From Petrachloros mirabilis ULC683 (lineage in GTDB: Bacteria; Cyanobacteriota; Cyanobacteriia; Thermosynechococcales; Thermosynechococcaceae): a DNA stretch of 59,805 nucleotides. Each line of letters opens with the position of its first letter. The first letter of the stretch is position 1. Below the pieces are notes generated by a model, which saw only the letters and a program-made list of their open reading frames with translations, was not told the DNA's origin and did no database searches. A program made the translations under genes and the position numbers. Positions 19,547 to 43,679 of the stretch are shown here, in pieces. The stretch lies in contig NZ_WVIC01000015.1 in assembly GCF_009939295.1 (NCBI RefSeq), forward strand, positions 1 through 59,805, given 5' to 3'.

Positions 19547-19588
19547 CTTTTATTATCTTAATTTCTTGACCTTTACTAAGTGAACACT

Positions 19589-20599: not shown

Positions 20600-20603
20600 A
20601 GCC

Positions 20604-21317: not shown

Positions 21318-21403
21318 GTATAAGAAAGTCTGGGGGCATCCCAGTTTTGCAAGCTGTCCCTCAGCTCCTCCTTTTCCCTGAATAACAGCTACTCATCCAC
21401 CCC

Positions 21404-22981: not shown

Positions 22982-25468
22982 CTATTTTGGAACATATTGA
23001 ATGCCTATTATAGAAGGGCTTGAGCTTTGAGGGCTGAGCGCTGCCACATTCCCGACAAGAAGCTTTCGACGCCTTTGTATGGACAGGCTATTCCCTGTGG
23101 TGTTTACGTCCCAGACAATTGCGGCTGCTTTGCCATCTTTTCCATAGCTGTTAGATGTGTATTTTTTATCATAGAAAGATAAATAAGCTGTAAAAGTATC
23201 GTCTCCTGTCCGAACCATATTGAAGCTATTAGAATTTAATGCGCTGCTTGGAATGGTTTCCTCTTCTATTCTGTAAGAAAATTGACTATTCGCAGGGTTT
23301 TGCACTTTTTCTATGCTTTCTTCGGCAATAGAAACTGTAATTGAGTTCAATTGCCATACTTTTGGATGCAGCTCCGGCAACTGACTGCAAGGAAAGTTTA
23401 TTTTTCCTAATTGGAGACAAGAGCTAGTATCTTGCAATGAAATAGATACACTACTTACTTCTCCAAACCAATACTTATCAAATAACTCACCAAACGCCCT
23501 GCTGATAACCACTTTCTTCCCAATAAGCTCACTTTCTGGCGAAGGATTTTCTGTAAAAAAATACCGAAGAAGGCGGTCATTTGCTATAACATCCTGTTGA
23601 TACCTCTCTTGGACGTTTAGTTTTTCTGGACTCGGAAGACTAATAAAATTTGTATCTATATCTTTTTCTGTATTGGTTATTGAAGTCCATACATTGTTAA
23701 CAAGCGTTATGACAACATCTCTCTGTATTCCTGTCGAATCTAAGAAGCCAAAAGCCATCCTGTCCATCATTAGGTTTCTGTTGACTACAAAAGTATAAGA
23801 GCCTACAGAAAGGTCAGCATTTATGGAAGAAAAAAGTGGAAAAATATGCGGGTGGCTTTTGTGCTCTAAAATATTTTGTTTATTAGCAAAAAAGCTATTG
23901 CTTTCTTCTAAGGAAGAAAAAGAGTGTTTGTGTTTTCGTGTTAAAGTCGAAGATCCATCTGGAGCGCTGCTACCTCCTATTACAAAAGCTGGAAAAAAAA
24001 AGCCAAATAGGTGCTCCAAGGTACTGTGACTTTTCCACTGGCTTTTGCTTTCCGTAAAAAAAGCAAAGTCTTTTCTCGCAAAAGAAACGCTGTAAGTTGT
24101 AGTTTTTCTATTAAAAACTCCTTCAAAGCTGCCAGAGCTTCCATTGTCTTGCTGTACGTTTATATTAATGTCTGTACTGTATATGTTTCGATTGTAAAAA
24201 TCAAAGTCTTGATTAAACTCTAGAGCATCTTCCCACTCAAAAGGCAGTGTCAAAGATGAATGGATAGGAAATGGGTATTGCATTACTCTGCTCCAAGAGT
24301 AGTGACTTTCATTAGATACTGTGCCCTCCCAATAGTCAAAATTTGGATCCTTCGTAGTACGAGCTTCTGACCCAGAGCTGTTTTGTGATAATGACTCTGA
24401 GTAGCTGCCGATATGCTCTTGAAGTCCTTCAGGACTATAGGTATATGCTTTTACTTCACTGTTAGCTATAACGCTATAATTTAAAAGTGGAGTACCATTC
24501 ACCCTACTTACCGAGAGCCGGGGTGTTGCAGAAATAGCACTGCTTGAAGCGGTTAAAGTCGGGAAAAAGGCAGTATTGTAATTTGAACTAAGAAAAGATT
24601 CTCCAGGATGCTGAATAGTAACAGGAAATGACCGAATACTGGGGCTGGCTGGATTACTTCTTTCGGCAGATGTAAGAGTCCCTATTGCATAGTTATTCCA
24701 ATACCCAGTGCGAAGAGGAATATTGTTAATGTTTGCAAAAGTTGAATTTGTAAAAACACCAATAACAGATGGACAAAAAGTTAAGTGATTGCTGTTACCA
24801 CCATTCGATTGAAGTAAGTCATCTCCAAAGAAGCCTGTAGTAGGGTTGTGCACTATTGTCTCTGCTGACGGTTCACCGAGGGTTGATGCTAAGGCTTCTT
24901 TGCTTCGGGACGCGAGAGGAGTGGAGCTGGCGGGAAGTTCTGATAGCGAAACATATACCGCTGGAGGAGCAGAAGGAGCTGCTATTCCAAAACCCCGCAT
25001 GTGCTGCCAATCGGTGTCTGGAATGTTGAAGTCGTTTTGAACTTGGCCATTCAAGTCTATAAAAGTGATCTTTTCATTGGTGCTGTTGACGATATAGCCA
25101 TCTTTTTTGCTGTTGACGTAAAACGTTGCTTCCTGAAAAGGGGAAATTTCCTTTCTTTTCCTTGTAAATCCTCCCAGAAAGAGCCGACTGGGATTTGTTT
25201 CTTGAAAAAGAACCTTGAAGGAATAAGTCTTCACTGGCGCTATTGGTTCTTCCCTTCTGCGGGCGCTGCTTGGGCCGTCTAGTTCGGTGAGGCCGCTGGC
25301 TTGGGTTTTGATCAGCCGCTGGCCTGTGGCGGCTTCGCCGCTGGCTTGATACTGGCCTGGGCTGGGGGCAAGATCGCCTGTAATATTGCGGTTGAGGCGC
25401 TTTTGCTGTCTTGCGGTTTTCTCGCGGCCCCGCTGCCGGCCCAACCAAAGGAGGTCTTTAATGTCCAT
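22982..25468 (-). CDS. Large chimeric fibre-like phage protein
   Basis: The 828-residue product is mostly beta-rich and Ser/Thr/Asn-rich, without catalytic motifs, as in receptor-binding or adhesin-like tail proteins. The first 75 residues (LLWLGRQRGREKTARQQKRL, ITGDLAPSPGQYQASG) are encoded by GC-rich DNA like the phage core; from about 25230 leftward the DNA turns clearly AT-rich. Such a break suggests a conserved attachment part joined to an exchanged distal part. Its ATG overlaps the start of a divergent gene and has only a weak ribosome binding site (AGG). It is the first gene next to the host CRISPR locus. Confidence 0.6.
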   Translation of the reverse strand: MDIKDLLWLGRQRGREKTARQQKRLNRNITGDLAPSPGQYQASGEAATGQRLIKTQASGLTELDGPSSARRREEPIAPVKTYSFKVLFQETNPSRLFLGGFTRKRKEISPFQEATFYVNSKKDGYIVNSTNEKITFIDLNGQVQNDFNIPDTDWQHMRGFGIAAPSAPPAVYVSLSELPASSTPLASRSKEALASTLGEPSAETIVHNPTTGFFGDDLLQSNGGNSNHLTFCPSVIGVFTNSTFANINNIPLRTGYWNNYAIGTLTSAERSNPASPSIRSFPVTIQHPGESFLSSNYNTAFFPTLTASSSAISATPRLSVSRVNGTPLLNYSVIANSEVKAYTYSPEGLQEHIGSYSESLSQNSSGSEARTTKDPNFDYWEGTVSNESHYSWSRVMQYPFPIHSSLTLPFEWEDALEFNQDFDFYNRNIYSTDININVQQDNGSSGSFEGVFNRKTTTYSVSFARKDFAFFTESKSQWKSHSTLEHLFGFFFPAFVIGGSSAPDGSSTLTRKHKHSFSSLEESNSFFANKQNILEHKSHPHIFPLFSSINADLSVGSYTFVVNRNLMMDRMAFGFLDSTGIQRDVVITLVNNVWTSITNTEKDIDTNFISLPSPEKLNVQERYQQDVIANDRLLRYFFTENPSPESELIGKKVVISRAFGELFDKYWFGEVSSVSISLQDTSSCLQLGKINFPCSQLPELHPKVWQLNSITVSIAEESIEKVQNPANSQFSYRIEEETIPSSALNSNSFNMVRTGDDTFTAYLSFYDKKYTSNSYGKDGKAAAIVWDVNTTGNSLSIQRRRKLLVGNVAALSPQSSSPSIIGIQYVPK

Positions 25469-25730
25469 TGAAAGCCTGTTGAAGGAGTCTCGAAGTCGGG
25501 GCCTGCAACGCTTGGCCCGCGCTCAAGAAACCAATGTACTACGACAGTCTTATAGGGGGCGAGTAACGGGGTTTGGGCTGGGTTCTGAGGTGATCTGTGA
25601 TATTGGTGGGCAGGCGATCCGTTGCCAGAACTACGGTGGGGCGCTGGCTTTGGGGCAGATCGTGCTGGTGACGCTGCCCCAGGGGGATTGGCGGGGCATT
25701 GTGAAGGGGCAGAGCAGCTTGACCCCCTAG
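25461..25730 (+). CDS. Small phage protein (89 aa) divergent from the fibre-like gene
   Basis: A strong ribosome binding site (aaaggagg) precedes the ATG at 25461. The product starts with a helix (SIESLLKESRSRGLQRLARA) then a small beta domain (YRGRVTGFGLGSEVICDIGG, LALGQIVLVTLPQGD), the style of OB/SH3-like phage tail accessory proteins. The N-terminal helix resembles that of the divergent fibre-like protein (both follow M-I-LL-R-RG-AR-Q), suggesting a shared attachment element. The two starts overlap by eight bases. Confidence 0.65.
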   Translation: MSIESLLKESRSRGLQRLARAQETNVLRQSYRGRVTGFGLGSEVICDIGGQAIRCQNYGGALALGQIVLVTLPQGDWRGIVKGQSSLTP

Positions 25731-25772
25731 ATGTGGTGCTGCTCTGTCCCTGGACGGGCACTAGATGCGGCT

Positions 25773-26277
25773 TTAATCGACTTCGGGTTTGAAGTCGTAG
25801 CCTTCTTTGGCCAGCTCTGCCTTGAACTTCAGATCGCCGTCTGCAAGAAGTTCTTGACGCTCTCCCAGCAACCCTAACAGGTATGCAGTGAGATTCTTGA
25901 CTCATCGACTCTTAACTAGATTGAGTTGCCCCAACCCCCGTCAGACCGTCTCTGCAAGCATTTTGTTTTTACGTCCACGATGCGCCCCACCGCAGACTGG
26001 AATGAGAATCGAAATTCTCTTGTTGCACCAACTTGCGATTTCGTGGTTTACCTCCACCACGGGTTTTTTGGGTGCGCCAAACCATACCCTTAGATGTGTG
26101 AATGTGCACATCACTCGAAAGGGCTTCCAGAAAGGCTTCTGTCGCCGAGAGCCGATAGTAGGCCGCAAAATACCGCCCTGTTGCTTTACACATATCGGTG
26201 GCGCTCAGATACCCGTCTTCGGGTCGGCGACGGATTTCGGTGCCACGAAAATCCAAGGATTCGACGGGAAAAGACAT
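25773..26277 (-). pseudogene. Broken KilA-N domain gene
   Basis: The leftward frame from 26277 encodes a good KilA-N N-terminus (EIRRRPEDGYLSATDMCKAT, FLEALSSDVHIH), a DNA-binding domain of phage and viral regulators, but the sequence loses resemblance after about 65 residues and stops at 25969. A separate fragment in another frame (25773-25904) encodes YLLGLLGERQELLADGDLKF then KAELAKEGYDFKPEVD, which looks like a conserved C-terminus but has a stop just upstream and no start. I read this as one decayed gene with frameshifts, or two fragments of different genes. Confidence 0.5.
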
Positions 26278-26306
26278 AGTATGGACTCATGGATTGTGGA
26301 CAAATC

Positions 26307-26352
26307 CATGATAGCCCTGCCCCTCTGGAGCGGGGCTATTTTGATGTTTTGC
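26307..26352. terminator. Possible bidirectional terminator
   Basis: The sequence atagccc ... gggctat flanks a short GC-rich core and is followed by tttt on the plus strand. It lies between the HNH gene and the KilA-N remnant and could end transcription from the leftward genes. The stem is imperfect. Confidence 0.35.
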
Positions 26353-26438
26353 GCTGGTGGTCTGCATAAATTCTTTGCGACGCGCTGGTTTATCTAAAAG
26401 CCCCGAAACCCTTTTCTTGACTGGATTTCAGACGCCGC

Positions 26439-26783
26439 TTATTTTTTGGGTGGCTTGATCTGGCAGGCTTTTCGCTGGTTGCAGGGGCCGCAGAGCAGTT
26501 GCAGGTTACTGAGGTCGGTAGCCAGATCTGGGTGGGTTTTGAGGGGCTTGATGTGGTCGATCTGGAAGTGGGCGATGGCGGGGAGCTGGTGGCCGCAGTC
26601 GGGGCAGATGCCTTGAATTCTGTTGAATTGCTGCTGTTTCCAGGCCTGACCATCCTGTGAGTCACGCCAGCGCTCGAAACGCCTGCGGGGCCTGTATTTG
26701 TGCCTGATTTTGGCAGCTAAATCTTGATATTTCTGGAGCTGGTGAAAGCTCTGCTGGATCCAGTCGGGCTTACTTTGCTGCAT
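26439..26783 (-). CDS. HNH endonuclease
   Basis: The 114-residue basic protein ends with a typical HNH module: a CPDCG zinc knuckle half, FQIDHIKPLKTHPDLATDLS containing the catalytic His of DHI, then NLQLLCGPCNQRK with the second CxxC. Such small HNH proteins in phages are homing or packaging-associated nucleases. It overlaps the upstream gene by 14 bp, so it is co-transcribed leftward with the two preceding genes. Location away from the terminase suggests an accessory rather than packaging role. Confidence 0.85.
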   Translation of the reverse strand: MQQSKPDWIQQSFHQLQKYQDLAAKIRHKYRPRRRFERWRDSQDGQAWKQQQFNRIQGICPDCGHQLPAIAHFQIDHIKPLKTHPDLATDLSNLQLLCGPCNQRKACQIKPPKK

Positions 26784-27138
26784 GTTTGGCTCGGATTTCG
26801 GCGGCTTTGAGTTTGTGCTTGCCGTTACTGGGGCTTAAGCCTGTGTTTAAGAGGCTTTGAACGGCACTTTTGGTGGGGGTTGCGGGGGCACCGAAGGGGA
26901 TGGGGATGATGTTGGAGCCGAGGGCTAGAAGCTGTTGCTGGAGCTGGGTTAGGGTGATGCGGGTGCTGGGGCGAATGCGGGGGTTGGCGAGGCGCTGATC
27001 AATGGCAGCCAAAATGTCGGAGCGGCTGTAGGTGTTGCTGCGCCCTTGTTTGCCGACTTTGGGGCAGGCTTTGATCAGTTCGCGGGCTTGGTATTGGGTT
27101 GCACCAAGGCCGATGAGTTGCTGGGTGGTGATGTGCAT
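26770..27138 (-). CDS. Unknown phage protein with excisionase/MerR-like N-terminus
   Basis: The 122-residue product starts at an ATG two bases after the preceding gene's stop. Its first 50 residues (TTQQLIGLGATQYQARELIK, GRSNTYSRSDILAAIDQRL) fit a winged-helix pattern of the excisionase/MerR type; the C-terminus is basic. Function is unknown; a regulatory role in the leftward operon is possible. A longer frame reaches 27213 but overlaps the upstream gene more heavily. Confidence 0.55.
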   Translation of the reverse strand: MHITTQQLIGLGATQYQARELIKACPKVGKQGRSNTYSRSDILAAIDQRLANPRIRPSTRITLTQLQQQLLALGSNIIPIPFGAPATPTKSAVQSLLNTGLSPSNGKHKLKAAEIRAKHAAK

Positions 27139-27140
27139 GG

Positions 27141-27551
27141 TTAGGCGGCTTTTTGTTCGTCTGTGGCGGGTTGAAGGCGTTGGGTGTAGGTGGCTAGAAG
27201 CCCTTCTATCCAAGGGTCTCGGTAGCGCGTGAGCTTGGCAATGCTGTAGAGGACGGCGATCACTGCAATGGCTTTGCTTTGAAAGGCTGCGAATTGGCCT
27301 TCATAATCCTCGACCATGTCGGCGAATTGCAGTTCAACTTCTTCTAGGAGTCTTTTGTTATAGGTGACCTGGGCTTTCTGGGCGGCCTGAAGGTGTTGCC
27401 GCTTAAGGAGCTCGGGGCCTGCGAAGCGCACCATGGTGTTGAGGACGATAACTTCTTCGGTGGGGAGCTGCACCCCGTCTAGGGCGCGTTTGGCGTCTGC
27501 TTTGGTCCAGCCGAGTGCTGCGGCGAAGTCGATGGCCTCTTTTTTGTTCAC
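27141..27551 (-). CDS. Unknown phage protein, first gene of leftward operon
   Basis: This 136-residue, mainly helical protein (EAIDFAAALGWTKADAKRAL, LLKRQHLQAAQKAQVTYNKR) begins at a GTG. A hydrophobic helix (AIAVIAVLYSIAKL) sits near the C-terminus but is short for a membrane span. It heads a leftward group with the next two genes. I do not recognise it. The upstream 310 bp contain the palindrome and repeat array that probably control it. Confidence 0.5.
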   Translation of the reverse strand: MNKKEAIDFAAALGWTKADAKRALDGVQLPTEEVIVLNTMVRFAGPELLKRQHLQAAQKAQVTYNKRLLEEVELQFADMVEDYEGQFAAFQSKAIAVIAVLYSIAKLTRYRDPWIEGLLATYTQRLQPATDEQKAA

Positions 27552-27863: not shown

Positions 27864-28259
27864 TCAGGCGGATGGAGTTGACGCTGGAGAGTCTGAGTTA
27901 ATGCTTTGAGCCCAGCGCTTACCAATGCGCTGGGTCAAAACAGGCAGATACGAGATCGGGACTTCGTCGATCATCCGCATGGCCCTATCAATGCTGAGGG
28001 GCTCCTGTGTCTTGCCTTCGATATAGGCAATCGCCTCTTCATATCTATAGCCCGCCATCGGAGCGAGGACAGTCCAGTAGTCAGGGTTGATGCGAGTAAT
28101 CTTGCCACTCTCGATGCTTTGAATCGTTGCATAAGAGATTTCAAGCTGGTGCTGGTCAGACAGGTACTCGGCAAAGCTGCGCTGGCTGTCACAGCCAGCA
28201 TTCTGCCTAGCCTTTCTTGCCAGTTCGGCCATTCGTTCGTGCCTTGACATGATTGCCAC
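27864..28259 (-). CDS. Phage repressor, XRE-type helix-turn-helix
   Basis: The 131-residue leftward gene faces away from the early operon, as the c repressor does in Mu-like phages. The N-terminal domain (RSFAEYLSDQHQLEISYATIQSIESGKITR) is a Cro/CI-type helix-turn-helix; the C-terminal part is helical and may dimerise. A GTG at 28259 and an ATG at 28250 are both possible starts, the first with AGGAG nine bases upstream. It should maintain lysogeny by acting on the palindromes at 28300-28364. Confidence 0.8.
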   Translation of the reverse strand: MAIMSRHERMAELARKARQNAGCDSQRSFAEYLSDQHQLEISYATIQSIESGKITRINPDYWTVLAPMAGYRYEEAIAYIEGKTQEPLSIDRAMRMIDEVPISYLPVLTQRIGKRWAQSINSDSPASTPSA

Positions 28260-29420: not shown

Positions 29421-29640
29421 TGCGATCAAGGTTTCAATATATCCGAGTGAAGAGGCCGATAGGCTTGTTCGGTTTCTGTCTGCACTTGACAGGAGCAGTT
29501 ACAACCGAATCGTTTTGGAGGCGATTGACTTTTATCTCAAGGAAAGAACCAAGGACTTAAAAGCCTTGGAAATCAAAGAAGAAATTAACGCTTATGTAGA
29601 GGCATTGAACGAGAAGGATGAATTGGTACGCCGCATCTGA
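29413..29640 (+). CDS. Small ribbon-helix-helix-like protein
   Basis: The 75-residue protein opens with NAIKVSIYPSEEADRLVRFL and continues with two helices, the outline of a CopG/Arc-type ribbon-helix-helix DNA-binding protein. It overlaps the transposase start by 23 bp. It could control transposase expression; this is inferred from position. Confidence 0.5.
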   Translation: MANAIKVSIYPSEEADRLVRFLSALDRSSYNRIVLEAIDFYLKERTKDLKALEIKEEINAYVEALNEKDELVRRI

Positions 29641-31795
29641 GTTAGCAGGCTTGCCTGGCCTCCCTACGCAGAGGCGAAACGTCTTTCTAAAGGGAATCAG
29701 AGAAGGCTGGGAAAGCCGGAATGTGCCATGGCGAGGGGGCTGTCGAATAGAGTTCCACATCTCATCCCTCCCCCCCGAAACCCAGGCAGCTTTAGCCCAA
29801 AGAGAGGAATCAAATGACAACCACAACCCTAATCCTGATCATGATTTTCGGCAGCCTGCTGATTGCGGGTCTCGCGATCTCAATCTTCGCAGAGTAACCG
29901 AAATGGCCGCCACCCCCGAAACCCGCGACGCCGCCCGGCTGCAAATAACAAAAGCCTTTGAGCGGTACACCGCAGAAACAGAAAAAGCCAGCAAAATGCA
30001 GCGGCAACTCGACTTTTGCTACCGCTATAACCAGGGTGCAGACGCCGATTTGGGCCTAGAACCCTGGGTGCGCGGAATTGTTGGCGAAATCTCTCGATCT
30101 GGAGTCCTGCGCTGGCAATTCAAACTTAAAAAAGAAGGGCCAGATTTTAGGGAAAACTACCGAGGCCGGATCAGCGCCATCGAGCAGAGCCGCGCCTTGG
30201 CCGAAGCCTGCGAAGAATGCCTAGCTGCTGGCGGCAAACACTGGGGGCCGAAGCAAATTCGGCGCGTACTGCTGGCCTATTACGACTTCCCCCTAGATCA
30301 AATCCCCTCTGCCAAATCAATCCAACGCTGGCGGCAGCGCTGGATTGCTGATAACCCCCAGCGCTGGATGAAATATTGCGACCCAGAGCGCGCCCGTGGC
30401 GCTGTCGTACCCGCCTTTGGCTCTCGCAGCCAGGGCATCGAGCGACCCAATCAGCTCTGGGAGCTAGACAGCTCCCCCACCGACCTGCTGCTGCGCCATG
30501 ACGGCGGCATCAAGCGCTATACCCTCCTGGGCTGCATTGACGTTTGCACTCGCCGCGCCAAGGTCTTGGTGGCCGAAACCAGCAACGGCAAAGCCATTTT
30601 GCAGTTGCTCCGCAACGCCATCCTCGACTGGGGAATGCCCGAAAGCCTCAAGACCGACAACGGCAAAGACTATATATCAGTGCGCGTGTCGGCAGCTCTC
30701 TATCGCCTGGGCATTCGCTTTGCCGACCTGCGCTGTAACCCAGGCCAGCCCATGGAAAAACCGCACATCGAGCGCTTTTTCCGCACCCTTCAGCACCACG
30801 ACCTCACCGTGCTGCCAGGGTTTGTGGGCCACAATGTCGCCGACCGGCAGGCGCTCAGGAGTAAAAGCGGCTGGCAGCAAAACTGCATCGAGCTGGCCAT
30901 GTCGCCTGAGCAGCTCCATGAGTGGCTGCAAAAGTGGGCCAACAACTACGACTCCCGCGAGCACAGCGCCCTGGGGCACTCGCCCATTGAGCGGCTGACC
31001 GCTGCGATCGGCCAAGGGTGGCAACCCACCATGGTTGAAAACCCTCGCCACCTAGACGCGCTCATGCTGGCCTCGGTAGACCGCACTGTCAACCGTGAGG
31101 GTATCCGGCTCAACAATCGCTGGTACGTGGCTCCCGAGCTGGCCGGGCTGATTCGCAAGGGAGTTCATGTTTGCTACGACGACGATGCCCCCGAGCAGAT
31201 CTATTGCTATCGAGATGAAACCCTGCGCGACTTTATCTGTGCCGCCACCTGGCGCGAAGCCTGCGACCTAGCCGCAGTCGCCGCCCAGACCAAGGAGTCA
31301 ACCAAGATCATCAATCTGGGCACCCGCAAAATCACCAAAGGTGCCCGCACCCTGCAGCGCAAAATCGCCAAGAACCCTGAGCGGCTACTGGGCAACGGTG
31401 CTGAAGTCGTGCCTTTAACCCCCGCCGTAAAGAGCTTTGAAGCGGGGGTTGAAGAGGCCATTCAAGCAATCAAAGCCGCCATCGCTCCCGCCCAGCCCGA
31501 GACACACCAGTTTGACGAGGCCGAGCAAGCCAAATTTGAACGCTGGGCCGCCGAAGCCGAGGCCAAGGCCGCCAAGCCCAAACAGCCAGAGCTGACCATC
31601 TACAAAATCTTTGAGATTTGCTTTGACAACTGGGCCGCAGACCAAGAGTCTGCCCCAGAGCTACTGGAAAAATGCTGTCGGGGCATTGAGACCAATGGCG
31701 GCGCGCTTTCGGCGGTTTGCGGCAGCAAAACCAAAGAAAAACAGTTTATCCAGTTTGTGCGCGAGTTTGTGGCCCAGCGCCGCCAAGCAATGTAA
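29618..31795 (+). CDS. MuA-type DDE transposase
   Basis: This 725-residue protein inserts and replicates the phage genome. The N-terminus (ELAGLPGLPTQRRNVFLKGI to about residue 60) is the Mu-type winged-helix end-binding domain. A helical region follows. The catalytic core carries Asp284 (WELDSSPTD), Asp347 (LKTDNGKDY) and Glu385 (KPHIERFFRTL), with correct spacing for an RNase H-fold DDE integrase. The C-terminal third contains the beta-barrel region and basic segments, and ends in a helical part likely to contact the MuB-type ATPase encoded next. Confidence 0.95.
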   Translation: MNWYAASELAGLPGLPTQRRNVFLKGIREGWESRNVPWRGGCRIEFHISSLPPETQAALAQREESNDNHNPNPDHDFRQPADCGSRDLNLRRVTEMAATPETRDAARLQITKAFERYTAETEKASKMQRQLDFCYRYNQGADADLGLEPWVRGIVGEISRSGVLRWQFKLKKEGPDFRENYRGRISAIEQSRALAEACEECLAAGGKHWGPKQIRRVLLAYYDFPLDQIPSAKSIQRWRQRWIADNPQRWMKYCDPERARGAVVPAFGSRSQGIERPNQLWELDSSPTDLLLRHDGGIKRYTLLGCIDVCTRRAKVLVAETSNGKAILQLLRNAILDWGMPESLKTDNGKDYISVRVSAALYRLGIRFADLRCNPGQPMEKPHIERFFRTLQHHDLTVLPGFVGHNVADRQALRSKSGWQQNCIELAMSPEQLHEWLQKWANNYDSREHSALGHSPIERLTAAIGQGWQPTMVENPRHLDALMLASVDRTVNREGIRLNNRWYVAPELAGLIRKGVHVCYDDDAPEQIYCYRDETLRDFICAATWREACDLAAVAAQTKESTKIINLGTRKITKGARTLQRKIAKNPERLLGNGAEVVPLTPAVKSFEAGVEEAIQAIKAAIAPAQPETHQFDEAEQAKFERWAAEAEAKAAKPKQPELTIYKIFEICFDNWAADQESAPELLEKCCRGIETNGGALSAVCGSKTKEKQFIQFVREFVAQRRQAM

Positions 31796-31858: not shown

Positions 31859-32584
31859 ATGAAAACCGGACTTAATCATATCGCTATTCGCCTGAAGAAT
31901 ATTTACGCCCTGGCCGACGCTTGCCGCGACCTGCTGGAGCGCGGCCCTGGGGTTCCCGGCTTTGGCCTCTGCTGGGGAGCCACCGGCATGGGCAAAACCA
32001 CCGCCGTGGCCTACCAGACCAATCAATTTAATGCCATCTACCTGACCGCCACCCCATTTTGGAGCGCCAACGCCATGCTCTCCAAGATCCTGATCGAATT
32101 AGGGGGAGTGCCCAGGGGCAGTGCCTCGCAACTGCACGATTTGATTGTGCAGCGACTGCAAGAAAATCCCCGCCTGATCTTTATTGACGAAGCGGACTTT
32201 ATTTTTGAAAACTCCGCCCGCCGCACCCTGGTCGAGGGGTTGCGCTCTCTCCACGACATGAGTGGCGCGCCCTTTGTGCTGGTAGGGATGGACAAAGTGG
32301 TTAGCAAGTTAGAGCTGTATCCCCAGTTGCACGGTCGCGTTTCGCGGTTCGTGGAGTTTCGGAACCTGGACCTGGGCGATCTGCGCCAGGTCGTCGAGGC
32401 TGCCTGCGAGATCAAGCTCTCTGACTGCCTGCTTGAGCGACTGCACGAGGCCACGCGGGGCCGTCTGCGCCAAGCCGTCACCGCCATCAGTCGCATTGAG
32501 CCAGTGGCACGGCTTAATGACTGGCAAGAGGTCACGGCTGAACTGTGGGGGGATGAACCATTTTTTCTAAAGGAGACGCCATGA
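31859..32584 (+). CDS. MuB-type AAA+ ATPase (target DNA activator)
   Basis: The 241-residue protein shows Walker A GATGMGKTT (40-48), Walker B LIFIDEAD (106-113), and a sensor region (FVLVGMDKV), the ATPase core of MuB/TniB/IstB. It would coat target DNA, choose insertion sites and stimulate the transposase. It lies 63 bp downstream of the transposase and overlaps the next gene by four bases. Confidence 0.92.
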   Translation: MKTGLNHIAIRLKNIYALADACRDLLERGPGVPGFGLCWGATGMGKTTAVAYQTNQFNAIYLTATPFWSANAMLSKILIELGGVPRGSASQLHDLIVQRLQENPRLIFIDEADFIFENSARRTLVEGLRSLHDMSGAPFVLVGMDKVVSKLELYPQLHGRVSRFVEFRNLDLGDLRQVVEAACEIKLSDCLLERLHEATRGRLRQAVTAISRIEPVARLNDWQEVTAELWGDEPFFLKETP

Positions 32585-34385: not shown

Positions 34386-34881
34386 CCCGAATCCTGCCGA
34401 AATCCCCAGCTATGCCCGTGTTGAGCGCCCTAGGGGGGTTGTCTATGCCGGTGCCCCTCGCCAGTATCGGTTTAATGGCAAAGACGGATGCTTTTACCAG
34501 GGAGGTGAACTGGTCGATCAAGAGCTTCAGATCCAGCCCTTTGAGGTTCGCTGGGATTACGGCGAGCGCTGGGGCCGGCCAGCCCAATCCTGGCTGGATG
34601 TGGCCTTTGCCGATGCTGGCTCTGTTATTTCGATCATTTCCTTCAAAAAAGACTCGGCGCTGAACTTGTTTGAGGCATTCTTGGCCCTGCACGAGGCAGG
34701 ACTTGTCCCAGATGCGGTCAGGCTGTATCTGACCTCAGACCTACGGGAGACCGAGGACGGCGGGTTTTGGGTGGTCGATATTGCAGGCTACGAAATCTTG
34801 CCAGAGCAGCAGTATCGGGATCTGCTGGAGTTTAAAGAGTCCCGTCGTTTCGAGTGGATCTTGATTGGGGAGGCAGCGTAA
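34366..34881 (+). CDS. Early phage protein, unknown (171 aa)
   Basis: A good AGGAGGA ribosome binding site precedes the ATG at 34366. The product is 171 residues, with aromatic and acidic content (RGVVYAGAPRQYRFNGKDGC, WLDVAFADAGSVISIISFKK). No known domain is seen. Its stop TAA overlaps the start of the GemA fusion gene by one base (TAATG). Confidence 0.55.
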   Translation: MPTQFFSPNPAEIPSYARVERPRGVVYAGAPRQYRFNGKDGCFYQGGELVDQELQIQPFEVRWDYGERWGRPAQSWLDVAFADAGSVISIISFKKDSALNLFEAFLALHEAGLVPDAVRLYLTSDLRETEDGGFWVVDIAGYEILPEQQYRDLLEFKESRRFEWILIGEAA

Positions 34882-35669
34882 TGATTGACCCCCAAACCCA
34901 CACCCAAGGAGACGTCCTGGGCAACATCGGCGACTTATTGAGAGAAGAGCAGGTGATTTATGAGAACCGGCAAATTCTCAATCAAGCCTTCCAAGAAATA
35001 GGTTCCGCGCTGCGACGGATTCGAGATCTGAAGCTCTATAAACTCAAGCCCTATAGCAACTTCGAGGACTACTGTGAGGCCGAGTTTAAAATGTCGCGGT
35101 CTCGGGCCTATCAGCTTATCGATTCTGCCAAGGTCATTCAAAATGTCTACAGCTGTAGACAAATTCCTGCCAATGAGGCTCAAACCCGTCCTCTGGCCCA
35201 GTTGCCCCCATGTGAGCAGAAAGAGGTAGCCATGCAACAAATCCCCAAAGACCAACGTACCCGACTCCTCAAGCTGATCCACATCGGCAAAAAGCAGCTT
35301 GGCCTCGACGACGACACCTACCGCGAATTTTTGGATAGTGTCACAGGGCACCGCTCAGCCGCCGACTGCACCATGAGCCAGCTCAACCTAGTGCTGCGTC
35401 GCATGGAGTCTGCAGGCTTTAAGCGTGGGGGCGGCAAGTACAGCCCCCGCACCCGCGACAAGTCTCTGAAGACACCCATCGACAAAATCCGGGCGATTTG
35501 GATCGACCTCGCCAAGCAGGGCAAGATCAAGGATCGCACTGAGGCGGGTTTGCGGAAATTCATCAAACGACAAACCGGCTTAGACAAAATCGACTGGCTG
35601 CTGCCTGAGCAGAGCCAGAAGGTGATTGAAGCCCTCAAAATCATCCAAGCTCGGGAGACCCGCGAATGA
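34881..35669 (+). CDS. GemA (DUF1018) protein fused to a plasmid/ICE-type helical domain
   Basis: The last 145 residues (about 118-262) are the Mu gp16/GemA family: QIPKDQRTRLLKLIHIGKKQ, LGLDDDTYREFLDSVTGHRS, then the late MDKIDWL-type ending (GLDKIDWLLPEQSQKVIEAL). GemA modulates host gene expression and DNA topology in Mu. The first 115 residues (YSNFEDYCEAEFKMSRSRAY, QTRPLAQLPPCEQ) are a separate helical domain familiar from plasmid and integrative-element proteins. An internal ATG at 35232 with AAGAGGT before it could also yield GemA alone. Confidence 0.8.
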   Translation: MIDPQTHTQGDVLGNIGDLLREEQVIYENRQILNQAFQEIGSALRRIRDLKLYKLKPYSNFEDYCEAEFKMSRSRAYQLIDSAKVIQNVYSCRQIPANEAQTRPLAQLPPCEQKEVAMQQIPKDQRTRLLKLIHIGKKQLGLDDDTYREFLDSVTGHRSAADCTMSQLNLVLRRMESAGFKRGGGKYSPRTRDKSLKTPIDKIRAIWIDLAKQGKIKDRTEAGLRKFIKRQTGLDKIDWLLPEQSQKVIEALKIIQARETRE

Positions 35670-36145
35670 ATCCCTACATCCACCCCATCAAAAAAACCGA
35701 AGCCCACTTCCGCCAGAGTTACCCTTGGCGGGCTGCAGAGCCTGACCAGCGCAAATGTTTTTATGAGTGGCTAGGCAGGCGCCTTGAGGCCGCCCTTAAA
35801 GCGGGTTTTAGCGCCTATGAAGCTGGATTTCGACATGCCTTGAATTGCGAAAAAACCGAACTCGATTTGGAGAAATTATTCATGAGCTGGGACGTATTTA
35901 CTGAGGCCGAGGCCGAGCGCCGCCAGGCCGAGGAACTGTATCAGACTCGCTTGGCGGCGCTGAGCGACGAACTCCCCCCCGTCGCCGACGGCGAGGCGGA
36001 GGGCGCGCCGAGCGCCCACCAGCACCTAGTGCGCCTGCGCGCCCTCTGGAAACACCCCAAAATGCACCAATTTGTCCGCCAGCGCATCAAGGATAACCCC
36101 AACTGGGGGATCGAAATTGGCTCCAATGGCCCGGAGGTAAAATAA
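35666..36145 (+). CDS. Early phage protein, unknown (159 aa)
   Basis: The 159-residue product starts within the GemA stop (ATGA). The N-terminal half is helical and aromatic (HFRQSYPWRAAEPDQRKCFY, LEAALKAGFSAYEAGFRHAL); the C-terminus is basic. No domain is recognised. Its stop overlaps the next start (TAATG). Confidence 0.55.
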   Translation: MNPYIHPIKKTEAHFRQSYPWRAAEPDQRKCFYEWLGRRLEAALKAGFSAYEAGFRHALNCEKTELDLEKLFMSWDVFTEAEAERRQAEELYQTRLAALSDELPPVADGEAEGAPSAHQHLVRLRALWKHPKMHQFVRQRIKDNPNWGIEIGSNGPEVK

Positions 36146-36342
36146 TGCGAGAGATGCCTGCCTTTCGCCCCTTCCAGGGGCAGATCTTTGAATTAATAGA
36201 CGATCGCCGCCCAGCTCCACCCTCTCGGGCCGACTATCGCCACTTGCGAAGCAGCGGTCTTTACTCCAAGTTTCGATCAGTCCCTACCCCCTATGGATTT
36301 TGGGCGCTGTACGGCTTGCCCAGGGAGGAACCGGATGTCTGA
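36145..36342 (+). CDS. Small early phage protein directly upstream of nblA
   Basis: This 65-residue basic protein (MPAFRPFQGQIFELIDDRRP, FRSVPTPYGFWALYGLPREE) is translated from an ATG overlapping the previous stop and ends eight bases inside the nblA-like gene. No domain is recognised. Its tight coupling to nblA makes a related role conceivable but unproven. Confidence 0.5.
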   Translation: MREMPAFRPFQGQIFELIDDRRPAPPSRADYRHLRSSGLYSKFRSVPTPYGFWALYGLPREEPDV

Positions 36343-36520
36343 TTTTAAGCTCAGTGTTGAGCAGGAATTTGAGTTGGCGGCCTACCGTCAACGCATCCAG
36401 CACCTCAGCCTTGAGCAATCTCATCTGGCCTTGGTCGGCCTCTACGCGCTGATGCTGGAGCGCGATGCCTATTATCAGGGGTTGTTGCGCGTTAAGTGGG
36501 GGATTGGCGATGCCCATTGA
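36335..36520 (+). CDS. nblA: Phage-encoded NblA-like phycobilisome degradation protein
   Basis: The 61-residue product keeps the layout of cyanobacterial NblA: FKLSVEQEFELAAYRQRIQH then LSLEQSHLALVGLYALMLER then AYYQGLLRVKWGIG. The LS.EQ.F, (L/M)S.(E/D)Q, LY..M..R and YQ.LL...WG positions correspond one to one with NblA of Anabaena and others (about 60-65 aa). NblA is an adaptor that brings phycobilisomes to Clp protease for breakdown. It sits in the early/middle phage operon between small genes that overlap it on both sides, so it belongs to the phage, not to a host insertion. Expression would dismantle the host antenna during infection. Confidence 0.88.
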   Translation: MSDFKLSVEQEFELAAYRQRIQHLSLEQSHLALVGLYALMLERDAYYQGLLRVKWGIGDAH

Positions 36521-37016
36521 TCCGCAGGCGCAGCTCCGCCTTGAGATCCGGGCCGAGCTCAAGAGGCTGGGGGTGGATGAATCTCATCCCCGCGTAGTGA
36601 CTTTTTTGCGCCTGGCTGGCTACACCTCTCTCGATGAGGCCAGCCACGAGGCTCTGGCGGCTCTTAGGGAAAAGATCCGCTCTCGACACCCAGATGCCCC
36701 TCGTGATCTAAGCGATCAAGTCGCAGCCTGCGAGTGCGAATTGAAGCGCCTAGGACTGGGCAAGCACGATTTTTCTGTGCTGCAATGGCTGCGCAGCAAC
36801 GGCTACGAGCGCTGGGAGGCGCTGGATGCCGCAGGGCTGTACACGCTCACCCGTGAGCTGCGCCGATGCGACGCTCCTGGGCACACTCGTACTATCCTGG
36901 AGGTAATTGAGGTGCTTTTGCGACATTTGAGTGCAGGAGACAAGCAAAATATCATCACCGAGCTAGAGCGCCTAAGGTACAGACTAGGAGGAAGCGATGC
37001 AACAACTCGGCCTTGA
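36510..37016 (+). CDS. Early phage protein with internal duplication
   Basis: The 168-residue protein starts at 36510 inside the nblA end, behind GGGGGAT. It consists of two similar repeats: AELKRLGVDESHPRVVTFLR followed by LAGYTSLDEA, and CELKRLGLGKHDFSVLQWLR followed by SNGYERWEALDA. Function unknown. It overlaps the Mor gene by 20 bp. Confidence 0.6.
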   Translation: MPIDPQAQLRLEIRAELKRLGVDESHPRVVTFLRLAGYTSLDEASHEALAALREKIRSRHPDAPRDLSDQVAACECELKRLGLGKHDFSVLQWLRSNGYERWEALDAAGLYTLTRELRRCDAPGHTRTILEVIEVLLRHLSAGDKQNIITELERLRYRLGGSDATTRP

Positions 37017-37428
37017 ATTTTTTGCGGAGCAGGCAGAGGAATTGCCGCCAGTCGCCGACCGCGATCCCCCGATCGTCCAGCATCTCAGACGGCTGCTGAC
37101 CGATGCTGAGCTGCTGCTTTTTTTACAGAACTATGGCGGCCAGCGCATTTATATCCCCAAGTGCGAAAGTGCCCTCACCTCGGATCACCCCCTGGTCCAG
37201 GCCATTGGCCTCAAGGGCGCTCAGCGCCTGGTCGGCGCTTATCGAGGTGATACTCTGGTCGTCCCCAGGGGACAGGCAATGTTTCGGCGTCTGCGCGATA
37301 AGCGGATCTGCGAAGAATATCTCTGCACTACTGCTGCTGAGCTGGCCAGTCGGTACAACCTCTCCGTCTTGCATGTCTACGCGATCGTGGGTAAGCATGG
37401 GGTGAAGAAGGGCACAACGCGGCGCTAA
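36997..37428 (+). CDS. Mor-family transcription activator
   Basis: Mor switches on middle transcription in Mu-like phages. The 143-residue product has the Mor/C signature: GGQRIYIPKC in the dimerisation part and, at the C-terminus, a helix-turn-helix (AAELASRYNLSVLHVYAIVG). It is the last gene of the early block; the lysis and head genes follow after a 65-82 bp gap that contains a strong dyad. It should activate a promoter in that gap or just upstream of late genes. Confidence 0.88.
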   Translation: MQQLGLEFFAEQAEELPPVADRDPPIVQHLRRLLTDAELLLFLQNYGGQRIYIPKCESALTSDHPLVQAIGLKGAQRLVGAYRGDTLVVPRGQAMFRRLRDKRICEEYLCTTAAELASRYNLSVLHVYAIVGKHGVKKGTTRR

Positions 37429-37510: not shown

Positions 37511-37906
37511 ATGGAAATATCGGTACCTGTGCCGCCAGCGATTCAGCCGTATGTCACTCCGGGGCTGAGTACGCTGGCGGCATTTATCTTGGTCTTTGTT
37601 TGGCAGCGTTGGCGGCGGGGACTATCTTCGGCGGAGGCGCTGCGAATGGCCATTCTGTTTGCCCGCCAGATCTGGGATGTCAGCGATTTCGATGCCCCTA
37701 GAGCATTGGGTGCGGGGACGCTCTCGATGAAGCAGCTCCGCGAGGCCGGGGCTGTTTTACTCGATCAGGTGGTGTCCCACTCAACTTATTTCGATCGGCT
37801 GCCGCCAGAGGTGGCTAAGCCCCACCCAGAGCTGAGAGAGGTAGATCCCGTGGAGCTGGCACGAGGGGTCTATATGCAAGTGCGAGGTGATTCCAATGGC
37901 ATTTGA
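37511..37906 (+). CDS. Putative holin or membrane lysis protein
   Basis: From the ATG at 37511 the 131-residue protein has a single membrane segment near the N-terminus (LSTLAAFILVFVWQRW) followed by a soluble helical domain. A TTG at 37493 in the same frame is an alternative start. Its place directly before a cell-wall peptidase suggests a role in lysis. No close holin family is recognised. Confidence 0.5.
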   Translation: MEISVPVPPAIQPYVTPGLSTLAAFILVFVWQRWRRGLSSAEALRMAILFARQIWDVSDFDAPRALGAGTLSMKQLREAGAVLLDQVVSHSTYFDRLPPEVAKPHPELREVDPVELARGVYMQVRGDSNGI

Positions 37907-38543
37907 TGATCAGAAATTCCAGGATTTTTTCAGGTTCTACGACCACCACAATCCCCGGCACCAGAATGCCGTACTGGAGCTGGCCAAGCATATTCCGGCT
38001 GAGCAGCTTGCTGACGAGGCCAACTGGGTGCGAATTTTTCGGACTGCGCCGCCCACCCCTGAGCTAGAGCAGCGCAAGCCGCCCACCGAGTCGGTGCGCC
38101 TCCCCTACGAGCCGGGGAGAATTGATTGGCACGATAATAATTTCCGTGTCTCCAGGCACTTCACAGTGGGAGAGGTCACCCGCTTTGACCCCCGACGCAT
38201 CCCACCCATAGGGAGCGCCGTGGAGCGAGCCGTCCTGGCTCTGGCGACAGATTTGGATAAATTGCGAGAGGATTGGAATCGCCCCATTGGTGTTACGAGC
38301 TGGAATCGCCCCCCCGCGATCAATCAAGCGGTGGGTGGGGTTTCAAATTCTCAGCACATCTTGGGGTCTGCCGTGGATTTATATGATCTGGGGGGAAATG
38401 ACCGCCAGTTCGAGGATTTTTTGGATCGCCATTGGGGGGGAGCCCTGGGGTACGGAATCCGCTCTGGAAGAGGTTTTACACATCTGGACATGAGAGGAGG
38501 TGGATTTAAGCGTGGTTCGGGCAGTATCCGCTGGAATTATTAG
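37896..38543 (+). CDS. Endolysin, M15-type peptidase
   Basis: The 215-residue protein belongs to the zinc D-Ala-D-Ala carboxypeptidase/M15 family used by phages to cut peptidoglycan cross-links. Zinc ligands fit His154 and Asp161 (SQHILGSAVDLY) and His196 (FTHLDMRG); GVTSWNRPPAINQAVGG is the typical preceding strand. The start is preceded by GAGGTG. The N-terminal 75 residues may bind cell wall. No signal peptide, so it needs a holin. Confidence 0.88.
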   Translation: MAFDDQKFQDFFRFYDHHNPRHQNAVLELAKHIPAEQLADEANWVRIFRTAPPTPELEQRKPPTESVRLPYEPGRIDWHDNNFRVSRHFTVGEVTRFDPRRIPPIGSAVERAVLALATDLDKLREDWNRPIGVTSWNRPPAINQAVGGVSNSQHILGSAVDLYDLGGNDRQFEDFLDRHWGGALGYGIRSGRGFTHLDMRGGGFKRGSGSIRWNY

Positions 38544-39573: not shown

Positions 39574-40087
39574 AATCAATCAGCTCCCGCCCCATATCAA
39601 GGCCGAAGTGGATCAGCGGCTGATTACGGGCGGCTTTGCCAACTACCGCGACCTGGTGGACTGGATTAATGAGCGGTTGGCTGGCGAGGGACGGGTATTG
39701 CGGTTGTCGCTGGCAGGGGTGCATCGCTACGGCCAGGGCTTGGAGGAGGAGGTGGCCGCGCTCCGGCTGGCGACAGAGCAGGCCAAGGCGATTGTGGAGG
39801 CTACCCCAGACGAAGAAGGGGCGATGGCCGAGGCTTTGCTGCGGCTCAATCAGCAGAAATTGTTCAAGGCGCTGCTTAACTACAGCGGCGGAGAGGAGAT
39901 GGATTTAAGTAAGTTGACGAGGGCGATCGCCGACCTCAACCGCAGCGCCATCTCAGTGAAGAAGTACGCCGCTGAGGTCAAGGAAAAACTGAGTGCCAAA
40001 TTCGCCGCCCTAGAAAAGCAGCAGGGCCAAGGATTTGACCAGGCAACCCTCCAGCGGGTGCGACAGGAGATCTACGGGATTTTTTGA
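39557..40087 (+). CDS. Small terminase-type protein (Mu gp27, DUF3486)
   Basis: The 176-residue protein begins GPRSKINQLPPHIKAEVDQR, the standard start of DUF3486, whose members act beside the large terminase and probably recognise phage DNA for packaging. A helical coiled region follows. It starts behind GGAGG and overlaps the large terminase start (TGATG). Confidence 0.85.
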   Translation: MGPRSKINQLPPHIKAEVDQRLITGGFANYRDLVDWINERLAGEGRVLRLSLAGVHRYGQGLEEEVAALRLATEQAKAIVEATPDEEGAMAEALLRLNQQKLFKALLNYSGGEEMDLSKLTRAIADLNRSAISVKKYAAEVKEKLSAKFAALEKQQGQGFDQATLQRVRQEIYGIF

Positions 40088-41448
40088 TGAGCGCTATCAC
40101 TCTCTACCCCTACCAAAAGCGCTGGCTCCAGGACGACTCCCGGTTCAAAATTGGCATGTTCGCCCGGCAGACCGGCAAGACTTTCACTAACACCTTGGAA
40201 ATCGTCGATCGCTGTATCCGTGCAGAGATAGAAGGACGGCGTGAGCGCTGGGTGATTTTGTCTCGGGGGGAACGGCAAGCCAAAGAGGCCATAGAAGAGG
40301 GAGTTAAACGCCACTTAAAAGCGTTTGAAATAGCCTTCGAGGCGCTGGAATATGAGTATGAGGGCACCTACAAGGCGATGGATGTCGTGCTGCCCAGGGG
40401 GTCGGTGATTTCGGCTTTGCCTGCAAACCCTGACACCGCTCGTGGGTACAGCGCCAATGTGCTGCTCGACGAATTTGCCTTTCACCGCGACTCACGCAAA
40501 ATCTGGATGGCTTTGTTCCCCGTGATTTCGGCAGGGCACTTGCTGCGGGTGGTGTCCACGCCAAATGGTAAGGGCAACAAGTTTTACGATCTTATGACCT
40601 CCCCAGATCCCACCTGGAGCCGCCACCAAGTTGACATCCATCAGGCCGTAGCCGAGGGGCTACCCCGCGATGTTGAGGAGCTGCGCCGCGCCCTTAATGA
40701 CCCTGATGCCTGGAGTCAAGAGTTTTTGTTGCAGTGGCTGGACGAAGCCAGTGCTTGGCTCAGCTACGATCTCATTAACACCTGCGAGGCCGCCGAGGCA
40801 GGCCAACCCGACGCCTATACAGGTGGGGATGTGTATGTTGGCAACGATGTGGGTCTCCGGGGCGACCTCTGGGTGGCCTGGGTTGTAGAGCGGCTGGGCG
40901 ACGTTTTTTGGACTCGCGAAATTCGCACCCTGCGCCGATCCACTTTTGCTGAGCATGATGCCGTCATCGCCGAGCTATTTGATCGCTATAAAGTGCGCCG
41001 CCTGTGCGTAGACCAGACCGGCCTGGGCGAGCGCACCACCGAGGAGTACCAGCGCCGCTACGGCAGCACTCGCGTGGAGGGGGTGCTATTTACCAGCGCC
41101 AATAAGCAAGCCCTGGCCACTCTGGGCAAACAATGTTTTGAGGATCGACGCATCCGCATCCCTGAGGGCGATAGCGCCCTGCGCAACGATCTGCACAAAC
41201 TTAAAAAAATCACCACCGCCACCGGCGGCGTGCGCTTTGATGCCGATCGCGATAGCAGCGGCCACGCCGATCGCGCCTGGAGCTGCTTTTTGGCTCTCAA
41301 TGCTGCCATCACCCCCACCGTGCCCATCGAGTATCAGGCGGCTGGAGCGCGGCTGAACTTGGCGGCCTTTGCGGGAGCCACCCCCCACCTAGAGCAGCGA
41401 GGCTTCGGGGCGGTGGCTGGAGCCGTAGATATGGAGGGCTGGGCGTGA
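40087..41448 (+). CDS. Large terminase subunit (Mu gp28 type)
   Basis: This 453-residue motor packages DNA into the head. The ATPase has Walker A FARQTGKT (25-32) and Walker B VLLDEF (125-130) with the following motif VVSTPNGKGNKF. The RNase H-like nuclease shows acidic residues in YVGNDVGLRGDLWVAW, RLCVDQTGLGER and the late RFDADRDSSGHADR. Size and order are normal for Mu-like phages. Overlaps the portal gene (TGATG). Confidence 0.93.
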   Translation: MSAITLYPYQKRWLQDDSRFKIGMFARQTGKTFTNTLEIVDRCIRAEIEGRRERWVILSRGERQAKEAIEEGVKRHLKAFEIAFEALEYEYEGTYKAMDVVLPRGSVISALPANPDTARGYSANVLLDEFAFHRDSRKIWMALFPVISAGHLLRVVSTPNGKGNKFYDLMTSPDPTWSRHQVDIHQAVAEGLPRDVEELRRALNDPDAWSQEFLLQWLDEASAWLSYDLINTCEAAEAGQPDAYTGGDVYVGNDVGLRGDLWVAWVVERLGDVFWTREIRTLRRSTFAEHDAVIAELFDRYKVRRLCVDQTGLGERTTEEYQRRYGSTRVEGVLFTSANKQALATLGKQCFEDRRIRIPEGDSALRNDLHKLKKITTATGGVRFDADRDSSGHADRAWSCFLALNAAITPTVPIEYQAAGARLNLAAFAGATPHLEQRGFGAVAGAVDMEGWA

Positions 41449-43679
41449 TGGTAAAGCGACCGGAAGTCCGCGAGATTGCCACCACTGGGGACGGGCGTGA
41501 TATTACTCGCCCTTTTATTGGCCCGCTCCTAGAGAGCCAGGACAAGATCCTCTGGAGCAAGGGCGGCGGCAATCTGGAGGTCTACGAGAAAGTCTTGCAA
41601 GACGACCAGGTCTACGCTGTCTTTCAGCAGCGGCGTCTGGCTGTGGTTTCGACCGAATGGGATGTGCTGCCGGGGGGCGACAAACGGCTGGATATTAAGG
41701 CGGCTGATGCCCTGCGGGATAATCTCAAGGCGCTATATTTTGATGCAATTTGCGATCGCATGCTTTACGGCATTTTCTACGGTTACGCCGTGGGCGAGTG
41801 CCTGTGGGGGTTGACAGATGGCAAGGTGGAGCTGGTCGATGTCAAAGTGCGGAAGCAGCGCCGATTCAAGTTTGGCCGGGAGGGCGACCTGCGACTCCTG
41901 ACCATGCAGCAGCCGGTGGGCGAAACCCTGCCGCCGCGTAAGTTTTGGTATTTTGCGACGGGAGCCGACAACAGCGACGACCCCTACGGGATTGGCCTGG
42001 GTCACTGGCTATACTGGCCGGTTTTTTTCAAGCGCAATGGCATCAAGTTTTGGCTGATTTTTCTGGATAAATTCGGCATGCCCACCGGGGTGGGCAAGTA
42101 CCAGCCAGGGGCGACCGAGGACGAAAAGCGCAAGCTTTTGCAGGCCGTGCAAGCCCTGCAAACCGATAGCGGCATCATTCTGCCCGAGGGGATGCTGATT
42201 GAGCTCCTAGAAGCCAGTCGCAGCGGCACCACAGATTACGCTGAGCTGCTCGACAAGATGGATAAGGCGATCAGCAAGGTGGTTCTGGGGCAAACGATGA
42301 CCACTGACGAGGGCGGCAGCCTGGCTCAGTCTCAGACTCACCTGACTGTGCGCCAAGACATCGTGAAGGCGGACAGCGACCTGCTCTGCCAGTCGTTCAA
42401 CGCGGGGCCTGCGCGGTGGCTGACGGACTGGAATTTCCCTGGCGCAGCTTACCCACAAGTCTGGCGGCGACTGAATGAGGAAGAGGATCTCAATGAGCGG
42501 GTGCAGCGCGACCAGGCGCTGTACGCAATGGGTTGGCAGATTCGAGAGGAGGCGCTACCCGAAATCTACGGCGATGATTATGAGCGCAAGCCCGAGGAGG
42601 TAATGCCGCAGCCTGGAGCTGAGGCCGGTGCTCAGCCCTCAGCAGAGGAGGAAGGGGAGTATAACCCCGACCCTTTTGAGCCTCAGGATTTTTCTGAGTG
42701 GTGGAATCCCGACCCCTTTGCGCCGGAGTTTGCCCAGGCGAAGGGGCCAAAGATGCCCAGATGCACCCGTGGCTACCCATGTGGAGCGAGCTGCCAGCGC
42801 ACGGGAAATAAGTGCCGAAATCCGCTGGATGACCAGGCTGGAGATTACGCAAGCTGGCTGAGCCAGCAGGTGGCGGCTGGGGCGAGCTTGTCGCCAGCGC
42901 ATCAGGCGGATGCTGATACCCTGGGGACGGCGGGGGGGGATGGCGAGCCGCCAGCGCAGGCTCAGGCCGTAAAGCTCCCTCAGGGCCACAGTGTTTCGCT
43001 GCACGGAGCTGCAAGCCAGACCGAGATTGAGCAAGCACTCAATGATCTGACGACGGACGACAATCGTCAAAACCTGAGGCGGCTTAGCAATTTTATTGAG
43101 GCAGAGGGAATCCAGGCGATTGTTTACGGCGATCGCGAGTTAATGACCGCAGACGATCTAAAAGCTGTTTATGCGATCGTCGATAAAACAGTTGGGCTGC
43201 CAGAAAACCCGACGGCTTTTGGTGCTGGCGGGTACACAAACGTCATGGGCAATTACATTGTCGTGAGCCACGATTCAGGCGGGTTTACGGCTCATCGAAG
43301 CAACCCACTAGGGGCGGTTGATCGGGTCAAGTCGGGTCTCTTCGAGGCGACAGAAGTCAATTCTGGCGGGATTTTGCAGCGCACCATTGGCCGACCAGGG
43401 ACCGGAGAGGTGGTCTACCTGCACGAAATGGGGCACCAGATCCATTACATGACAGTACCGATCGACGACAAAGGCAATAGGCTGCCAAAGGCCAAAGGAG
43501 GACGCCTTTCTAACGCTCAGCCCTGGCGGGGCAAACAGGTAAGCGAATATAGCAAAACGGATTACCTCGAATCATTCGCCGAGGCATTTGTGGCCTACAC
43601 TCTGGCTCCTTCGGATTACAGGGCTTTCGACCGAAAAGGATATGATCAAATTGATAAAATCATGAGTCGCTATGACTAA
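41448..43679 (+). CDS. Portal protein (DUF935) fused to a zinc metallopeptidase domain
   Basis: Residues 1-400 are the Mu gp29/DUF935 portal (DDQVYAVFQQRRLAVVSTEW, GIGLGHWLYWPVFFKRNGIK, VVLGQTMTTDEGGSLAQSQT). After an acidic linker comes a cysteine knuckle (CTRGYPCGASCQRTGNKC, about 436-453) and then a C-terminal domain with HEMGH at 659-663 and YLESFAEAFVAY, which supplies a third zinc ligand: a gluzincin-like protease. Normal DUF935 portals are about 500 residues and end with a helical tail; here that tail is found on a separate gene at 43924. The metallopeptidase is probably carried in the virion. Confidence 0.88.
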   Translation: MVKRPEVREIATTGDGRDITRPFIGPLLESQDKILWSKGGGNLEVYEKVLQDDQVYAVFQQRRLAVVSTEWDVLPGGDKRLDIKAADALRDNLKALYFDAICDRMLYGIFYGYAVGECLWGLTDGKVELVDVKVRKQRRFKFGREGDLRLLTMQQPVGETLPPRKFWYFATGADNSDDPYGIGLGHWLYWPVFFKRNGIKFWLIFLDKFGMPTGVGKYQPGATEDEKRKLLQAVQALQTDSGIILPEGMLIELLEASRSGTTDYAELLDKMDKAISKVVLGQTMTTDEGGSLAQSQTHLTVRQDIVKADSDLLCQSFNAGPARWLTDWNFPGAAYPQVWRRLNEEEDLNERVQRDQALYAMGWQIREEALPEIYGDDYERKPEEVMPQPGAEAGAQPSAEEEGEYNPDPFEPQDFSEWWNPDPFAPEFAQAKGPKMPRCTRGYPCGASCQRTGNKCRNPLDDQAGDYASWLSQQVAAGASLSPAHQADADTLGTAGGDGEPPAQAQAVKLPQGHSVSLHGAASQTEIEQALNDLTTDDNRQNLRRLSNFIEAEGIQAIVYGDRELMTADDLKAVYAIVDKTVGLPENPTAFGAGGYTNVMGNYIVVSHDSGGFTAHRSNPLGAVDRVKSGLFEATEVNSGGILQRTIGRPGTGEVVYLHEMGHQIHYMTVPIDDKGNRLPKAKGGRLSNAQPWRGKQVSEYSKTDYLESFAEAFVAYTLAPSDYRAFDRKGYDQIDKIMSRYD

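Follow-up and report, generated by a model that had tools for sequence, protein, structure and literature searches.

A probable phage-borne NblA in the early region of Mu-like prophages of Petrachloros mirabilis

We analyzed a 59,805-nt stretch of the Petrachloros mirabilis ULC683 genome (hereafter the window) and found that a 61-aa open reading frame within it very probably encodes a true phage-borne NblA, one that is selectively maintained in Mu-like cyanophages and would act early as a ClpC adaptor against phycobilisomes. NblA is a proteolysis adaptor that carries phycobilisome proteins to ClpC (review PMC7966870). The gene lies in the following setting.

22734-59805: part of the Mu-like prophage in the window (whole element 38,983 bp), from Pfam, PHROG and end repeats
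22734-22940: left prophage end, carrying the TGTA..GGGACGTTT terminal repeat plus two more copies
27864-28259, - strand: leftward gene at the place of the Mu repressor, assigned by position only, with no family match
29618-31795, + strand: MuA-type transposase (PHROG 310, E 3e-89; Mu-transpos_C)
31859-32584, + strand: MuB-type transposition ATPase (PHROG 296, E 3e-47)
34854-35669, + strand: protein with a C-terminal GemA domain (Pfam GemA, 1e-33)
35666-36145, + strand: early gene, by comparison with a second prophage (C4), where its homologue directly precedes nblA
36145-36342, + strand: 65-aa ORF without a family match that runs into the start of nblA
36335-36520, + strand: phage nblA, 61 aa (Pfam NblA, non-phage NblA profile, PDB 1OJH)
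36510-37016, + strand: conserved early gene right after nblA, 168 aa, no assigned function; prophages C4 and G009 have homologues
36997-37428, + strand: Mor-type middle/late transcription activator (Pfam Mor, 3e-14; PHROG 836)
37887-38543, + strand: endolysin (PHROG 894)
40084-41448, + strand: terminase large subunit (PHROG 5909 and PHROG 2)
41445-43679, + strand: portal protein (PHROG 113)
from 44445: Mu-F-like protein
from 49003: protease
50328-51269, + strand: major head protein (PHROG 1005)

The identity of the ORF was assessed with several profiles and libraries. Against the Pfam NblA model (PF04485, cut-off 25 bits), it scores 45.5 bits (E 1e-11), with residues 5-52 aligned to profile positions 1-48 of 50; for calibration, the NblAs of phages Ma-LMM01 and PaV-LD, both reported to be active, reach 51.8 and 46.8 bits on this model. 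A profile built from 73 non-phage NblAs recovers the window protein at 55.8 bits (E 2e-14). Using phmmer against solved structures, we matched residues 4-58 to Anabaena NblA (1OJH, E 2e-8), and S. elongatus NblA (3CS5) was matched as well. The initial annotation, which had called the ORF an NblA from its letters and proposed the Pfam search, is upheld by these scores. The NCBIfam NblA equivalog NF045916 (at least 100 bits) was not reached by the window NblA (23.3 bits); the tested host NblA (32.9 bits), Ma-LMM01 (14.4 bits) and PaV-LD (21.5 bits) miss it too, suggesting that this model is narrow. VIA gave no usable match.

Both functional blocks of the family are retained. The N-terminal LSxEQxF block is kept at L6, S7, E9, Q10 and F12, and the C-terminal YxxLL(K/R)xxWG(I/L) block at Y47, L50, L51, R52, W55 and G56; the EQ.F and YYQGLL...WG motifs singled out initially are indeed among the most conserved NblA columns. 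The initial annotation had placed ClpC binding at the C-terminus, which reverses the published assignment of the N-terminal motif to ClpC and the C-terminal motif to phycobiliprotein binding (PMC4103541). In helix 2, the window NblA departs from the consensus at L31, A32, L39 and E42, as does the copy in the C4 prophage; in most NblAs, these positions hold E/D, F, Q and a hydrophobic amino acid. From the sequence, these substitutions may have changed the partners or the affinity of the window NblA. Consistent with the ~60-aa helix-loop-helix proteins of the family, which pair as four-helix-bundle homodimers, a single-chain model of the window NblA gives the anticipated helix-turn-helix (H8-22 and H26-55; mean pLDDT 84, pTM 0.50). 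Foldseek returned no PDB match for this 61-aa hairpin, a very short query for such a search.

The gene is tightly packed among its neighbors, as the initial annotation had noted. Its ATG at 36335 follows a GGAGG-type ribosome site and lies before the end of the preceding ORF (36145-36342); on the other side, the next ORF begins at 36510, before nblA has ended.

The prophage spans window position 22734 to C25:61716 and, at 38,983 bp, is about the size of Mu; it appears complete. Three copies of GGGACGTTT..ATTG.GATC lie at the left end, near 22734-22940, and two inverted copies of the end repeat lie beyond the window at C25:61664-61716. The terminal repeat starts with TGTA, and the terminal transposase-type sites begin 5'-TG, with TGTANNGGGACGTTT.. 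at 22734 and the inverted counterpart ending at C25:61716. The Mu gene order is kept, running from MuA and MuB through GemA, Mor, endolysin, terminase, portal, Mu-F-like protein and protease to the major head protein, with a MuA DDE transposase paired with a MuB ATPase and with GemA and Mor ahead of the lysis and head genes. The Mu-like setting described initially, with nblA in the early region ahead of Mor, therefore stands: nblA is located between MuA/MuB and Mor, and no terminator-like site was found on the + strand between 34117 and 37768.

The 5-bp target duplication is absent at the prophage ends (flanks CTCTT versus TTGTG). The prophage lies within a type I-D CRISPR locus: on its left (19580-22785) are Csc2, Cas6 and a truncated Cas4, and immediately beyond its right end is a CRISPR array (L196:4740-5330, equivalent to C25:61739-62329). 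No cas1 was found on this contig; several are present elsewhere in the genome. As the left end interrupts cas4 and the duplication is missing, a later deletion or rearrangement next to the prophage, within the CRISPR locus, is likely. Between the left end and the repressor-position gene, a leftward cargo of ~4 kb (22982-27213, - strand) includes an 828-aa ORF without a Pfam, PADLOC or NCBIfam match, a gene encoding 147 aa and, at 26439-26783, an HNH nuclease similar to the Septu protein PtuB.

The same genome carries a second, strongly diverged Mu-like prophage with nblA, on contig C4 (~72-95 kb), where nblA sits between homologues of the genes at 35666 and 36510. The two NblAs are 65% identical; the other compared genes are 29-48% identical, except for the terminase (67%). 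In a tree with host and phage NblAs, an analysis also proposed initially, the window and C4 copies form one clade with support of 100/80. Between the two nblA genes, pS is 0.785 and pN 0.216 (pN/pS 0.28, bootstrap 0.17-0.44). The near-saturated synonymous sites point to an old divergence, and the low pN compared to pS indicates that selection keeps the NblA protein. GemA precedes nblA in the window prophage and follows it in C4, suggesting that local gene order was shuffled while nblA stayed.

NblA was found in further Mu-like prophages. One from another genus of the same family (G009:C1) encodes a clear NblA scoring 53.4 bits, 0.6 kb before GemA, with a start that overlaps the preceding gene. 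The fourth is IMG/VR locus L104, an element that is also present in genome G461. Its NblA-like ORF overlaps the end of GemA and scores 21 bits, below the Pfam cut-off; judged by sequence, it is a probable NblA. Because three related Mu-type prophages (one of them weakly) carry NblA at the same place, nblA appears to be a tool that these viruses maintain, not a host gene picked up by accident. A single origin is one possibility for the Mu-phage NblAs: the AU test did not reject it, with p 0.185 for all four and p 0.455 for three.

Mu-like prophages in G345 and G510 and the Mu-like isolates Mwe-Yong1 and Lsp-JY19 have no NblA, indicating that nblA is optional in Mu-like cyanophages. None was detected at 79 other IMG/VR and 35 non-cyanobacterial (by title) Mu-like terminase loci, about a third of which do not extend far enough to cover the early region (53/80 IMG/VR and 27/35 genome loci have at least 5 kb upstream). 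Terminase similarity alone was rejected as proof of kinship, as 60-70% identity reaches Mu-like prophages of many phyla. In 386 genomes of the cyanobacterial phylum, no other NblA came near the two phage copies, the next scoring 59.6 bits versus 131-140 bits.

Searching IMG/VR with the window NblA alone gave no match, and the window-C4 alignment recovered three further phage contigs (L070, L071 and L072). Compared with the window prophage, none of the three is Mu-like; L070 and L071 fall near host NblA in the tree. On L072 (IMG/VR UViG_2509601037_000001), positions 9980-10168 encode an unambiguous NblA of 70 bits next to a gene resembling ribonucleotide reductase, and the contig also encodes a serine-recombinase-like protein; it is possibly another temperate phage with nblA. 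Gene 2AV2_141 of Nodularia phage vB_NpeS-2AV2 (L269:2980-3156), annotated as hypothetical, is NblA-like at 22.2 bits, just under the cut-off, and Nodularia phages kac65 and kac68 have the same NblA-like protein (E 5e-4 with a host NblA as query). A further NblA-like gene (L265:8955-9134, in G051:C1; 29 bits) lies at a contig end without Mu-like neighbors and is 64% identical to the weak L104 NblA; the two form a divergent NblA subgroup common to one cyanobacterial family and its phage.

The host genome has 13 phycobilisome-domain matches, three genes with paired Clp_N domains (ClpC/ClpB-type) and two NblAs outside the two prophages. From the gene order, we infer that nblA would be translated from the MuB-Mor early region after derepression or new infection; in Mu, the corresponding stretch before Mor belongs to the early transcript. 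By analogy with the family, an NblA dimer would use its C-terminal block to dock on phycobilisome rods and its N-terminal block to dock on host ClpC, and ClpCP would degrade the antenna during transpositional replication of the phage. Amino acids and reduced light capture, with less photodamage, are the likely gains. The pre-Mor position and the lack of a terminator-like site between 34117 and 37768 point to an order in which early NblA synthesis would lead to antenna breakdown and then to late gene expression.

Other explanations have to be weighed against this one. That a small helical ORF resembles NblA by chance would fit a short protein without a Foldseek match, but the agreement of Pfam, the solved structures and the non-phage profile, the overlapping gene layout with its ribosome site and the conservation between copies (pN/pS 0.28) make it extremely improbable; the profile scores and the conservation contradict it outright. 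It is also very unlikely that a host nblA was captured recently as neutral cargo of one prophage. In favor of it, genomes of the host's family hold one to six nblA copies each; however, the window copy shares 36% identity with the closest NblA that its own host encodes outside the prophages, groups with the C4 prophage copy (100/80) and is under purifying selection, and the matching place of the gene in two diverged prophages with near-saturated synonymous sites contradicts a recent arrival.

The helix-2 differences at L31, A32, L39 and E42, common to the C4 copy, keep two functional alternatives alive at low probability. The phage NblA might pair with host NblA, or occupy ClpC or phycobilisomes unproductively, sparing the antenna and the energy supply during replication. 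Besides the shared substitutions, the essential NblA1/NblA2 heterodimer reported for Synechocystis (in a study cited by PMC7966870) suggests that a host NblA could be poisoned by a partner. Yet the window NblA retains both functional blocks, and the phage NblAs assayed to date lead to a loss of phycobilins (PMC9602691); we consider this reading unlikely. Alternatively, the protein might still bind ClpC and deliver another substrate, such as a repressor, a defense protein or a phage protein. Its very early position among regulatory genes, the adaptor logic of NblA and the several phage-specific substitutions agree with such a redirected role, which the kept phycobiliprotein-binding block (Y47, L50, L51, R52, W55, G56) renders quite improbable. 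We favor early antenna breakdown through ClpC.

Most work on cyanophages describes phages that keep photosynthesis running; phages with NblA act the other way. An nblA among the early genes of temperate, transposable prophages ties the loss of the antenna to lysogeny and to prophage induction, and a genome with two nblA-bearing prophages is a place to test that tie. The early-gene position predicts bleaching before virion production after induction. More broadly, and with somewhat better than even confidence, we propose that early NblA is a standard takeover gene of Mu-like temperate cyanophages, gained at least once in this lineage and possibly more often, and that antenna dismantling belongs to the program of induction and infection in transposable prophages and not just to lytic phages.

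Among known phage NblAs, that of the Microcystis phage Ma-LMM01 (also in MaMV-DC) resembles the window copy in being a phage-borne Pfam NblA (51.8 versus 45.5 bits) from a phycobilisome-bearing host lineage. It is, however, only 28% identical to the window copy, and its 162-kb phage, in which nblA is beside a ribonucleotide reductase, is not Mu-like. PaV-LD of Planktothrix likewise has a protein of the NblA family (46.8 bits), reported to make Synechocystis lose its phycobilisomes (PMC4103541), but this is a 95-kb phage with nblA beside a thymidine kinase, and it is of the integrase type, not of Mu-type transposition. The NblAs of marine cyanophages (podoviruses, S-TIM5 and S-SCSM1; Nadel et al. 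2019) are phage NblAs too, but from T7/T4-like and not transposable phages. The initial view that phage nblA is limited to a few lytic freshwater phages does not hold, since marine podo- and myoviruses carry it; activity is reported for several phage NblAs, and a metagenomic marine phage NblA is reported to be active in S. elongatus (PMC9602691). Microcystis phage Mwe-Yong1, a Mu-like isolate, has MuA, MuB, GemA and Mor arranged as in the window prophage but differs in having no detected NblA, including between GemA and Mor. A marine phage described in a 2019 paper reportedly carries nblA with an integrase; its lysogeny is of the integrase type, unlike Mu-type transposition. The initial annotation knew of no nblA in transposable, lysogenic phages. 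For transposable phages this stands, as no earlier report of NblA in Mu-like phages was found in searches of open-licence papers; for lysogeny genes it does not, since PaV-LD has an annotated integrase ~1.9 kb from nblA. What is new here is the transposable (Mu-like) setting only; phage NblA, also in the company of lysogeny genes, was already known.
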